Source: Acidobacteriota bacterium
GTDB taxonomy: Bacteria > Acidobacteriota > Terriglobia > Acidiferrales > 2-02-FULL-67-57
Length of the DNA stretch: 34,632 bases
Assembly (NCBI GenBank): GCA_022571295.1
Contig: JACZYA010000015.1
Location: forward strand, 1-34,632
Direction of reading: 5' to 3'
Made by a program: the position numbers and the translations under genes. The notes beneath the pieces were generated by a model. It saw only the letters and a program-made list of their open reading frames with translations, searched no databases and was not told where the DNA came from. Below are positions 1,826 through 34,102 of this stretch, in pieces; the stretch's first letter is position 1; each line of letters opens with the position of its first letter.

Positions 1826-2911
1826 ATGAGCGACGCCGCCGCACCCACTCCGCAGACGCCCGACGCGGAAATGCTGCTGGGCTTTTGGTATCCCGCCCTG
1901 CGCAGCCCGCAGGTCAGCGGCCGCAAGCTGCACAAAGCCATGCTGCTGGGCGTGCCGCTGGTTGTGGGCCGCACCGACCAAGGTCAGGTCTTCGCCCTGC
2001 GCGACACCTGCCCGCACCGCAGCATGCCGCTCTCCGACGGCCAGTTCGACGGCGCGCAGGTCGAGTGTTGCTACCACGGCTGGCGCTTCGAAGCCACCAC
2101 CGGCCAGTGCCGGGAGATTCCATCACTCGTCGGCCACGAGAAGCTCAAGGTCGAGCGCATCCATGCTTCCAGCTTTCCCTGCGAAGAGGCTGACGGTTAC
2201 GTCTGGGTTTACCTGCCCGACCCCGCCACGCGCAACTCCTCGCCGCCGCCGGTGCCGCGCCTGCCGGTCTTCAGCCAGCGTTACCGCATTACCCACCTCG
2301 CCGCCGATCTGCCCTCGAACGTGGACCACGGCATCATCGGACTGATGGACCCCGCCCACGGCCCCTTTGTGCACCAGTCCTGGTGGTGGCGCAGCCGCCG
2401 CAGCATCCAAGTAAAGGAAAAGACCTTCGAGCCCATCCCCAACGGCTTTCGCATTCAGGCCCACTCGCCCTCGCCCAACAGCGCTCCCTACAAGCTGCTC
2501 AAGGCCCACGGCCAACCCACCACCACGATCGAATTTGTCCTGCCCAACATGCGTTTCGAGCAGATTCGCGCCGGAGACAAGTGGTTCTCGAGCCGCGCCA
2601 CCGTCACGCCCATCGAGCGCAACCTCTGCCGCATTGACGTCGTGGCCGCGTGGAACATCTTTCCGTGGTTTCCTTTCACCGTGTCGCTGCTGCGCTTCTT
2701 CGGGCGCATGTTCATCGAACAGGACCGCCTGACGATGGAAAAGCAGGCGGTCGGCCTGCGCCACAGCCCCACCCTGATGCTGGTGGACGACGCCGACCGG
2801 CCCGCCAAGTGGTACTTCCAGTTGAAGGCGGCGCACCTGGAGGCCCGGCGTACCGGCCGCCCGATGGAGCATCCCCTCAAGGGGCCGGTCACACTGCGCT
2901 GGCGCAGCTAA
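1826..2911 (+). CDS. Rieske [2Fe-2S] non-haem iron oxygenase
   Basis: A 361-residue oxygenase with an N-terminal Rieske domain and a C-terminal mononuclear-iron domain. The Rieske cluster ligands are visible as C62-x-H64 (TCPHRSMPL) and C81-x2-H84 (CCYHGWRF). The catalytic iron site is marked by NVDHGIIGLMDPAHGPFVH: H178 and H183 form the H-x4-H pair, and D167 or D175 is the bridging/ligand Asp. The layout resembles the pheophorbide-a-oxygenase/VanA-like single-component group more than ring-cleaving dioxygenases, since no separate small subunit or reductase is adjacent. Substrate is unknown. It is an insertion relative to the usual ffh-rpsP neighbourhood. Confidence 0.9.
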   Translation: MSDAAAPTPQTPDAEMLLGFWYPALRSPQVSGRKLHKAMLLGVPLVVGRTDQGQVFALRDTCPHRSMPLSDGQFDGAQVECCYHGWRFEATTGQCREIPSLVGHEKLKVERIHASSFPCEEADGYVWVYLPDPATRNSSPPPVPRLPVFSQRYRITHLAADLPSNVDHGIIGLMDPAHGPFVHQSWWWRSRRSIQVKEKTFEPIPNGFRIQAHSPSPNSAPYKLLKAHGQPTTTIEFVLPNMRFEQIRAGDKWFSSRATVTPIERNLCRIDVVAAWNIFPWFPFTVSLLRFFGRMFIEQDRLTMEKQAVGLRHSPTLMLVDDADRPAKWYFQLKAAHLEARRTGRPMEHPLKGPVTLRWRS

Positions 2912-25843: not shown

Positions 25844-28602
25844 CACGAGCACCCCGAGGTGCCGCCGCAGTTGTGGCACTTGTAGCAGGAGCCGTTGCGG
25901 GTCATGAGCGAGCCGCAATCGGGACAGGTGGGAGCGTCGGGCGAGACTTCCACCGGCGCAGGGGTGAACTGCATCCTGCGCTCCACCCGCTGCACTTCTC
26001 CCTCTCCGCTGATTTCCCCTGCCGCCGCCACCGCCGGCGTAGGCTCAGGGGCAGCCGTTTCCCCGTTGGCATTCAGGTCCACGGTCTTGTACTTGGGAGA
26101 GATGAAGCGCGCGCCCAGCCAGCGGAAGATATAGTCAATAATGGACTTAGCGATCGGAATCTCCGGGTTGTTGGTCCAACCGGAAGGCTCAAAGCGGACG
26201 TGCTGGAACTTGTCCACGTAGATCTTGAGCGGCACCCCGTGTTGCAGCGCGATGGAAATGCCCAGGGCGAAGCTGTCCATCACGCCCGAGAGGGTGGAGC
26301 CTTCCTTGGCCATGGTGATGAAGATTTCGCCCGGCAGGCCGTCGGGGTAGAGCCCAACGGTGATGTAGCCCTCGTGGCCGCCGACGGAAAACTTGTGGGT
26401 GACGGCCTGCCGCGTTTCCGGCAGCTTGCGGCGCTTGGGACGAGGGTGCAGGTCAGCCTCCGGGGCGGCCGCCGCCTGCTGCTCGGTCTTGGAGGTCCCT
26501 GCGGCGGGGGAGAGGGGCTGGACCTTCTTGGAGCCATCGCGGTAGATGGCCACGGCCTTTGCGCCCAGCCGCCAAGCCTCGATGTAGGTGTCCATGACCT
26601 CTTCCACCGTGGTCTCTTCCGGCATGTTGACGGTTTTGGAGATGGCGCCGCTGACGAAGGGCTGCACCACCGCCATCATCTTCAGGTGGCCGCGGTACTG
26701 GATGGAGCGCCGACCGTCGGCGGGCTTGAGCGAGCAATCGAACACCGGCAGGTGCTCTTCCTTCAGATGAGGCGCGGCTTCGATGGTGCCGGTGCGGTCG
26801 ATGTGGTCAACGATGTCGCTGACCTGATCGGGCTTGTAGCCCAAGCGCTGCAAAGCCATGGGGACGGTGTTGTTGACGATCTTGATGACGCCGCCGCCCA
26901 CCAGCCGCTTGTACTTCACCAGGGCGAGGTCGGGCTCGATGCCGGTGGTGTCGCAGTCCATCATGAAAGCGATGGTGCCGGTGGGCGCAATCACGGAGGC
27001 CTGGGCGTTGCGGTAGCCGAACTTCTTGCCCGCGGCCAGCGCTTGGTCCCAGGCGTCCTGGGCCGCGGCCACCAGCGGGGCGGGGACGTTCTCGGCGTTG
27101 ATGCCGCGCAGGGCGTCGCGGTGCAAGGAGATGACGTCCAACATAGCATCCCGGTTCTGCGGATAGCCGGAGAAAGGGCCGGTGACCTCGGCGATGCGGG
27201 CGCTGGTCTGGTAGGCCTGGCCGGTCATCAAGGCGGTGAGGACAGCGGCCAGGTCGCGCCCGGCGTCGCTGTCGTAAGGCAGTCCGGAAGCCATCAACAG
27301 CGCGCCCAGGTTGGCGTAGCCCAAACCCAGCGGCCGGTAGTCGTGGGAGTTGCGCTCGATTTTTTCGGTGGGATAGCTGGCGCTCCCGACGATGATTTCC
27401 ATGGCCGTGACGACTACGTCCACCGCGTGCCGGAACTTCTCCGCGTCAAAGTTCCCCGCCCCGTCCACAAACTTCATCAGGTTGAACGACGACAAGTTGC
27501 AGGCCGAGTCGTCCAAGAACATGTACTCCGAGCAGGGATTGGAGGCATTGATGCGGTCGGTGACTTTGCAGGTGTGCCAGCGGTTGACGGCGGTGTCGTA
27601 CTGCATGCCGGGGTCGCCGCACTGATGGGTGGCTTCGGCAATCTGGCGGAGCAGGTCGCGGGCGCGAAACTCTTGAGCCGGCTGGCCGGTCACCACCGAG
27701 TGGGTCCACCAGGGTTGATCCTCCACCGCCGCCCGCATGAACTCATCGGTCACGCGCACGGAGTGGTTGGCGTTCTGGAAAAAGACCGAGCCGTAAGCCT
27801 CGCCGTCAATGGAGGAATCGTAGCCCAGGCCGACCAGCGCCCAGGCTTTGCGCTCCTCGCGCGCCTTGCAGCCGATGAACTCCTCGATGTCGGGGTGGTC
27901 AATGTTGAGGATGACCATCTTGGCGGCGCGGCGAGTTTTGCCGCCCGACTTGATGACGCCAGCGAAGGCGTCGAACCCTTTCATGAAGCTGACCGGCCCG
28001 GAGGCGGTGCCGCCGCCGGAGAGAGTCTCAGTGGAGCCGCGCAGGTGGCTGAAGTTGGTGCCGGTGCCGGAGCCCCACTTGAACAGCATGCCTTCGCTCT
28101 TGGCGAGGTCCATGATGGATTCCATGCGGTCGTCGAGCGCTTGGATGAAGCAGGCCGAGCACTGCGGCCGCGGCATCACACCCACGTTGAACCAGACCGG
28201 GGAGTTGAAAGCGACCATTTGGTTGAGCAGCAGGTGGGTGAGCTCGTCGCGGAAGATGGCGTGGTCTTCGGCGGAGGCAAAGTAGCTGCCATCCCGGCCC
28301 CAGTCGGCCAGGGTATCGGCCACGCGGCCGATCAGTTGGCGCATGCTCGCTTCGCGCTCCGGAGTGCCGCGGTTGCCGTGGAAGTATTTGCTGGCGACGA
28401 TGTTGGTGGCGGTCTGCGACCAGTCCTTGGGGACCTCCACGTCATGCTGCTCGAAGATAACCTCGCCCTTCTCGTTGGCGATGGAGGCAGTGCGCTGCTC
28501 CCATTGCACCTCATCGTAGGGGGAAACGCCCTCGCGCGTGAACAACCGACGGAACTTCAACCCTGCTTGTGTACCGCTAGAAAGGACTTCCCGTTCACCC
28601 AT
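25843..28602 (-). CDS. nrdJ: Vitamin B12-dependent (class II) ribonucleoside-diphosphate reductase
   Basis: A 919-residue adenosylcobalamin-dependent reductase converting ribonucleotides to deoxyribonucleotides. GAGGAG 9 nt before the ATG at 28602 sets the start. Key elements are FNSPVWFNVG with the Cys pair C148/C151, KWGSGTGTNFSHLRG, KSGGKTRRAAKMV, the active-site NPCSE (355-359, C357) followed by C368 in DDSACNLSSFNL, and PTGTIAFMMDCDTTGIEP. A TSCPD domain (GHEGYITVGLYPDG) follows. The C-terminal zinc ribbon starts CPDCG and ends CYKCHNCGGTSGCS, supplying the regenerating cysteines. It heads a leftward group of small genes. Confidence 0.97.
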   Translation of the reverse strand: MGEREVLSSGTQAGLKFRRLFTREGVSPYDEVQWEQRTASIANEKGEVIFEQHDVEVPKDWSQTATNIVASKYFHGNRGTPEREASMRQLIGRVADTLADWGRDGSYFASAEDHAIFRDELTHLLLNQMVAFNSPVWFNVGVMPRPQCSACFIQALDDRMESIMDLAKSEGMLFKWGSGTGTNFSHLRGSTETLSGGGTASGPVSFMKGFDAFAGVIKSGGKTRRAAKMVILNIDHPDIEEFIGCKAREERKAWALVGLGYDSSIDGEAYGSVFFQNANHSVRVTDEFMRAAVEDQPWWTHSVVTGQPAQEFRARDLLRQIAEATHQCGDPGMQYDTAVNRWHTCKVTDRINASNPCSEYMFLDDSACNLSSFNLMKFVDGAGNFDAEKFRHAVDVVVTAMEIIVGSASYPTEKIERNSHDYRPLGLGYANLGALLMASGLPYDSDAGRDLAAVLTALMTGQAYQTSARIAEVTGPFSGYPQNRDAMLDVISLHRDALRGINAENVPAPLVAAAQDAWDQALAAGKKFGYRNAQASVIAPTGTIAFMMDCDTTGIEPDLALVKYKRLVGGGVIKIVNNTVPMALQRLGYKPDQVSDIVDHIDRTGTIEAAPHLKEEHLPVFDCSLKPADGRRSIQYRGHLKMMAVVQPFVSGAISKTVNMPEETTVEEVMDTYIEAWRLGAKAVAIYRDGSKKVQPLSPAAGTSKTEQQAAAAPEADLHPRPKRRKLPETRQAVTHKFSVGGHEGYITVGLYPDGLPGEIFITMAKEGSTLSGVMDSFALGISIALQHGVPLKIYVDKFQHVRFEPSGWTNNPEIPIAKSIIDYIFRWLGARFISPKYKTVDLNANGETAAPEPTPAVAAAGEISGEGEVQRVERRMQFTPAPVEVSPDAPTCPDCGSLMTRNGSCYKCHNCGGTSGCS

Positions 28603-32949: not shown

Positions 32950-33046
32950 TTTCCTCCCCGCCTCCCCAAAGCAGGCACAACCGTATGAAAAAGAACCTTC
33001 AAGCCACCCCTGCCTGCGCTAGACTGGAAACTTTACGGAGGCGTTC

Positions 33047-34102
33047 ATGCGGGCACCGCGTAGATTCTTACTCTTGGCACTGGCGCTGCTGCCGCTACTG
33101 GCCTGCTGGAGCCAGCAGCAGGAGCCCAAGCCGGAGCCGAAGCAGGAGCAGGTCGGGGACGGCATCCTGATGCACGTCCTGGAACCGGACACCATCCCGG
33201 CGATTGACAACCCCCAATTCGTCTCCGCCAAAGAAGCCAAAGCCTTCATGCACCCCAACGAGCCCGTGCTGGGCCTCTTCGACGGCAAGGTCGCCAAAGC
33301 CTACTCCCTCTGGCACCTCGACCGGCACGAAATCGTCAACGACTCCCTGCCCGGCCTGGGGCCGGTGGCGGTCACCTGGTGACCCCTGGCCTATACGGGT
33401 GTCGTGTACACCCGCGTGGTCAACGGGGAGGAGCTCACCTTCGGCGTCTCCGGCAAGCTCTACAAGAGCGCCCTGGTCATGTTCGACCGCCAGACCAACT
33501 CCCTCTGGACGCAGGTGGACGGCTCAGTCCTGCGTGGCGAAATGAAGGGCGCCCAGCTCCAGCCCGTTCCGGTGGTGCAGACCACCTGGCGCGAGTGGAA
33601 GCGGATGCACCCCGACACGCTGGTATTGAAAAAAGATCGCTCCATCAAAGATTCTCCCTACGCCGAATACTTTGCCGATCCCACCAAGCTCGGGATGCCG
33701 GGCAACACGAATCCCGACCAGCGGCTGCCGGGAAAAGAGCTGGTAGTGACTTTGCGCGCGGGCGACGACGCCCTGGCCGTGCCCCTCACCGCGCTCAAGA
33801 AGAAACCCTTGCTTGAGACCAGGCTGAACGGCACCCCGCTGGCCGTGGTCTTCAATCCCGCCGGCAACACCGCCCGCGTTTTTGACCGGCGCTTGAACGG
33901 GCGGACGCTGGAGTTTGTCGCCGTCCACCGCGGCAAGCAGGTTATCCTGCGCGACCGGCAGACCGGCACCCGCTGGTCCGGCCTGACCGGCAAAGCGGTG
34001 AAAGGCGAACTGGCCGGCCAGCAACTCCGACCGGTGCCCCACATGGTCAACTTCTGGTGGGCCTGGGTAGCCTACAACCCCCACACCCGCCTCGAACCTT
34101 AG
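33047..34102 (+). CDS. DUF3179 lipoprotein, candidate selenoprotein with in-frame TGA
   Basis: 351 codons if the TGA at 33380-33382 (residue 112) is read through. GGAGG lies 5 nt before the ATG. A lipoprotein signal ends at the lipobox LLAC (C20). The DUF3179 domain is continuous on both sides of the TGA in one frame: NPQFVSAKEA, AYSLWHLDRHEIVND and VAVTW precede it, and PLAYTGVVYTRVVNGEELTF, FDRQTNSLWTQVDG and TWREWKRMHPDTLVL follow. The family usually has a CPLC-like motif at this point, so TGA replaces the first Cys, while the second Cys position is Ala. A stem-loop follows the TGA. Selenocysteine is the preferred reading; a nonsense mutation is the alternative. Confidence 0.8.
33383..33428 (+). 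promoter_or_regulatory. Candidate bacterial SECIS element after the in-frame TGA
   Basis: Immediately after the TGA, CGGGTGT (33396-33402) and ACACCCG (33408-33414) form a perfect 7-bp stem with a 5-nt loop CGTGT. Weaker lower pairs follow, and CCCC (33383-33386) can pair with GGGG (33425-33428). The loop begins 20 nt after the TGA and has G as its second base, both within the general geometry described for bacterial SECIS elements. Confidence 0.55.

Follow-up and report, generated by a model that had tools for sequence, protein, structure and literature searches.

An in-frame UGA very likely read as selenocysteine, and a hairpin conserved with it, in a putative DUF3179 lipoprotein gene of an Acidobacteriota bacterium

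The window analysed here, a stretch of 34,632 nucleotides from contig JACZYA010000015.1 of an Acidobacteriota draft genome (GCA_022571295.1), carries near its end a gene that almost certainly specifies a selenoprotein of the DUF3179 family, probably secreted and lipid-anchored, in which UGA at codon 112 would be read as selenocysteine (Sec) by means of SelB, tRNA(Sec) and a SECIS hairpin. Sec insertion at this codon is judged very likely from sequence comparison, because the genome encodes the machinery, the UGA position is shared with homologues, Cys and UGA alternate there, and the hairpin covaries only in the UGA forms. Sec is not new to this family. In the parts of two reviews that list selenoprotein families, DUF3179 appears with the motif UxxC/T (PMC9312934, PMC13188914), and the first of them credits the family to Zhang and Gladyshev 2007, from the Olavius symbiont (PMC9312934). 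An initial annotation made from the DNA letters mentioned a selenoprotein label for some family members, and these lists bear it out in substance; that the family is already known as a selenoprotein family, and that a UxxA motif is common among its Sec forms, were both absent from that annotation.

Translation of the frame shows one TGA only, at codon 112, and a terminal TAG (Table 1). The product matches PF11376 over residues 48–347 (E 2.3e-85; 287 bits against a gathering cut-off of 27; model positions 2–292 of 292), and the match runs across the TGA without a frameshift, as the initial annotation had read it from the family-like sequence on either side. No NCBIfam model matched the protein encoded at window 33047–34102. 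Plasmid records gave no match at the DNA level; at the protein level they hold DUF3179 relatives, mostly haloarchaeal.

Table 1. Features of the DUF3179 gene and its surroundings, in window coordinates
Feature	Position	Strand	Basis or remark
DUF3179 lipoprotein gene	33047..34102	+	PF11376 match; 351 aa with UGA112 read as Sec
Shine-Dalgarno-like GGAGG	33037-33041	+	Upstream of start 33047
Putative signal peptide with lipobox LLA-C, Cys20 the predicted lipidation site	33047..33106	+	MRAPRRFLLLALALLPLLAC; motif by inspection
First repeat, residues 74-196, containing the Sec site	33266..33634	+	Rieske-like fold inferred from homology with the second repeat and predicted models
In-frame TGA, predicted Sec112, motif VTW-U-PLA	33380..33382	+	Translation, homologue comparison
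Codon GCC (Ala115), position of the second Cys of the CxxC form	33389..33391	+	Translation, homologues
Predicted SECIS hairpin, 7 bp, loop CGUGU (33403-33407), G at 33404	33396..33414	+	Folding, covariation
Second repeat, residues 228-349, equivalent place without Cys or Sec	33728..34093	+	Profile match to Rieske domains

The family is widespread in the phylum, with DUF3179 matches in 130 of 396 genomes, and 114 copies drawn from the host genome and the phylum sample were compared. The host genome itself contains two further DUF3179 genes. One (L003, G000:C107, about 578–1330) again has an in-frame TGA, in the motif PTW-U-PLTGSG, followed by a perfect 7-bp hairpin, and the other (C44, L002) is a Cys form with CPLC. 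Among the 114 homologues, codon 112 is TGA in 63, Cys in 48 and another codon in three, which is the hallmark of a Sec gene, an in-frame UGA where homologues have Cys, and places the TGA at the first Cys of the CPLC-like motif, where it had been proposed to fall. The TGA and Cys states are scattered over the tree, with at least eight changes between them; the Cys/UGA alternation that had been named as a check is thus present, and TGA is not confined to this strain, a condition that the initial annotation had named as refuting. In L131, L132 and L133, Asn, Ser or Gln replaces Cys/Sec and the second Cys is retained (NPLC, SPLC, QPLC). The genome also holds a 46-codon fragment (L004, G000:C181:510-647) that is 91% identical to the C-terminus of the window protein (residues 306–351), with the rest of the gene absent; it could be a remnant, a strain variant or a stray assembly piece.

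Directly past the TGA lies the hairpin CGGGUGU-CGUGU-ACACCCG, and the arrangement described in the initial annotation, a 7-bp stem with a 5-nt loop that starts 13 nt past the TGA, places its loop at +20 and has G as the second loop base, is found exactly so at 33396–33414. The 19-mer folds with −9.8 kcal/mol (z −3.0 against shuffles), and the wider 56 nt around it gives a z of −1.9, such that folding of this single sequence is by itself only moderate evidence. No Rfam model matches the hairpin, and an Rfam search of the entire window likewise gave no match. Bacterial SECIS elements are stem-loops just 3′ of the UGA with a guanosine in a small apical loop (PMC1088965), and the predicted element resembles them in its position, in its small G-bearing loop and in the NGU loop of nearly all TGA forms; it shows no difference of consequence, and other bacterial SECIS elements likewise have their stem in the coding frame.

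That the hairpin is more than a chance fold follows from its behaviour among homologues, for which the ungapped stretch from the TGA onwards (T of TGA = 0) was compared in 62 distinct TGA forms and 45 Cys forms. At the same seven pairs, 80% of cells are paired in the TGA forms, and 96% in the subset with Pro after Sec, as against 26–48% in slid registers; none of 1000 shuffles, which do not control for relatedness, reached this level. In the Cys forms, by contrast, 48% of cells are paired, a value indistinguishable from their own shuffles. The full 7 bp are formed in 33 of the 62 TGA forms and in none of the 45 Cys forms; for the three loop-closing pairs the counts are 58/62 and 3/45, and the loop reads NGU in 59 of the 62 TGA forms. 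Most pairs show two-sided changes among the TGA forms: pair 21–29 is G-C, C-G or A-U; pair 19–31 is G-C, C-G or U-A; and pair 20–30 is C-G, U-A or A-U, the U-A of the window gene coming from a Thr codon at a place that is Ala or Val in many relatives. At a conserved Tyr codon the wobble base tracks its partner only in the TGA forms (31 G-C, 6 A-T, 1 G-T), while in the Cys forms it is mostly mismatched (15/21 A-C). In a more distant TGA subfamily, with the motif U-T-L-C-H, it is mainly the three top pairs that hold in this register, and the helix is different. Overall, the pattern resembles the mark of selection for RNA pairing within coding sequence, confined to the genes that have the UGA. 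With a hairpin directly past the TGA, a G in its small apical loop and compensatory changes that keep the pairing in TGA forms and not in Cys forms, the comparison strongly supports a SECIS element and agrees with the arrangement for Sec insertion that had been suggested from the single sequence.

These comparisons also bear on readings in which codon 112 does not encode Sec. A lone TGA in an otherwise intact frame, in an assembly that is a draft, might arise by nonsense mutation of a Cys-type gene, leaving a pseudogene, or by sequencing error. Such an origin is very improbable, given that 63 sampled homologues share the TGA and this genome has it twice, that hairpin covariation is confined to the TGA forms, and that 239 codons of intact frame follow the TGA. 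Equally slight is the chance that UGA is a real stop and that two proteins are made, one from 33047–33382 and another by restart at the GTG at 33404, from which the list of open reading frames does contain a frame running to 34102: the DUF3179 domain spans the TGA and its first repeat would be split in two, the hairpin conserved here would straddle the supposed start, and the Cys homologues are continuous at this codon.

The genome in question (3.24 Mb in 287 contigs, a draft estimated at 98.6% complete with 2.9% contamination) encodes the full set of components, SelA, SelB, SelD and tRNA-Sec, for which the initial annotation had advised a search. SelA matches with E 3e-146, SelB with 358 bits against a cut-off of 242, and tRNA-Sec, with the anticodon UCA, scores 67.9 bits. 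SelD (375 bits; L022, G000:C258:3829-4758) has an in-frame TGA of its own near the N-terminus (AAG-U-ASK) and is probably a selenoprotein too. Since the Sec genes lie on other contigs of the draft, they are linked to the window's contig by assembly or binning only. Among 14 control genomes, SelA, SelB and SelD each exceeded the cut-off in two, a rarity that supports the specificity of these matches; tRNA-Sec did so in five, and the anticodon assigned by ARAGORN is therefore the better evidence for this tRNA. In the window, ARAGORN also reported a tRNA-like stretch at 27180–27273, which has a two-base anticodon, lies inside a long open frame and found no support in an Rfam search of the window; it was rejected.

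Across the phylum, and among the matches listed, 48 of 51 genomes that carry a TGA copy have a strong SelA, compared with 42 of 58 that carry only non-TGA copies (p 0.004, from a hand-made table in which relatedness is not controlled). In each of the three TGA genomes lacking a strong SelA, tRNA-Sec scores above the cut-off, as does SelB in one of them, so that the missing SelA genes probably reflect assembly gaps. A further alternative, that UGA112 is read as some other amino acid through a code change to Trp or near-cognate read-through, is exceedingly improbable, in view of an aligned residue that is Cys and not Trp, the presence of tRNA-Sec(UCA) with SelA, SelB and SelD, the conserved hairpin, and the apparent use of UGA as a stop elsewhere, for example, by inspection, where the second DUF3179 gene terminates (L003 1328–1330).

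In the window gene, the residue three positions after Sec is Ala115, as the initial annotation had pointed out, and a thioredoxin-like CxxC or UxxC pair is accordingly lacking. This is not a peculiarity of one sequence. The +3 residue is Cys in 31 of the 63 TGA forms, Ala in 20, Thr in seven and another residue in five; in the 48 Cys forms it is Cys in 44, Thr in three and Ala in one (Cys versus not-Cys, Fisher p 1e-6). When the tree was used to ask whether the second Cys tends to be lost once Sec has been gained, the independent pairs were too few (median p 1), and so the UxxA contrast of 20/63 against 1/48 may in part reflect shared descent. The second Cys appears dispensable in Sec forms, judging from these alignments. 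The window gene groups among the UxxA rows L026, L029, L028, L032, L037 and L040, with limited support for its exact branch. Like the DUF3179 selenoproteins of the published lists, it belongs to PF11376, carries Sec at the same motif and has Cys homologues; it differs from them in its +3 Ala (UPLA), which the lists do not name although UxxA accounts for 20 of the 63 Sec forms. The gene is thus a well-supported addition to a family in which Sec was already known, and its UxxA motif is unnamed in those lists.

The literature passages found to name the family assign DUF3179 no function, and the domain's architecture offers a lead. DUF3179 is an internal duplication: residues 74–196 align with residues 228–349 (probability 99.9), and only the first of these halves contains the Sec site. 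Two AlphaFold2 models built from three-row alignments reached medium confidence (pLDDT 71 and 73). For both, Rieske ferredoxins were among the best Foldseek matches in the PDB and made up almost all of those with high probability (probability mostly 0.98–1.00, TM 0.53–0.64 by target length, E about 0.009–0.1 or weaker). A profile of the second repeat scored 37.2 against a profile of 28 Rieske domains from the same phylum, compared with 10.5 on reversal and no more than 14.7 across 60 column shuffles. The first-repeat profile alone gave no match to the Rieske profile (14.6, within its own shuffles), hmmscan found no Pfam Rieske match in the DUF3179 protein, and sequence searches of the PDB with the single sequence and the repeat-1 profile returned nothing useful and no solved DUF3179 structure.

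DUF3179 may resemble the Rieske [2Fe-2S] domain (PF00355) in fold, to judge from its predicted models and the profile score of its second repeat; it differs from it in lacking the cluster ligands and in the absence of a profile match for repeat 1 alone. The ligand pattern C-x-H...C-x-x-H occurs in 0 of 101 second-repeat rows, the Rieske CxxH aligning instead with a DRxT (D-x-x-T) motif whose first-repeat counterparts, D147 and T150, are nearly invariant. As the ligands are absent, DUF3179 is not a Rieske iron-sulphur protein; two predicted models and one profile comparison lead to the hypothesis that it may comprise two tandem Rieske-fold domains without iron-sulphur ligands. By the alignment with the Rieske domains, Sec would not occupy the place of a cluster ligand but would lie earlier, in a hairpin where the exact register is uncertain. 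One may speculate, as a tentative idea that we hold to be somewhat improbable, that a tandem Rieske fold lost its cluster and gained a Cys/Sec active site, with a lone Sec in the UxxA forms, and so brought an undescribed selenol chemistry to an electron-transfer fold. A true Rieske-domain protein (PF00355, 3e-21) is encoded at window 1826–2911, about 30 kb from the DUF3179 gene, and shows no sign of linkage to it.

In the proposed mechanism, SelB with Sec-tRNA(Sec) would decode UGA112 as selenocysteine under the direction of the hairpin 13 nt downstream, and the protein would be exported and lipid-anchored. Its selenol would perform redox chemistry at the site that is CPLC in other members. 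Ala at residue 115 makes it impossible for Sec to form an internal selenenylsulphide with a CxxC partner; an external thiol, or else some other residue, would presumably take part in the Sec intermediate. The best guess at function is a lipid-anchored redox protein in which Sec acts together with an external thiol.

For annotation, the consequence is that reading every UGA as a stop would split this gene at its putative active-site residue, and would do the same to dozens of relatives in the phylum. The SECIS of the family is now clear at the level of base pairs, and forms with Sec at the first position often lack the second Cys. As to the nature of the DUF3179 scaffold, the fold lead offers a hypothesis that can be tested.
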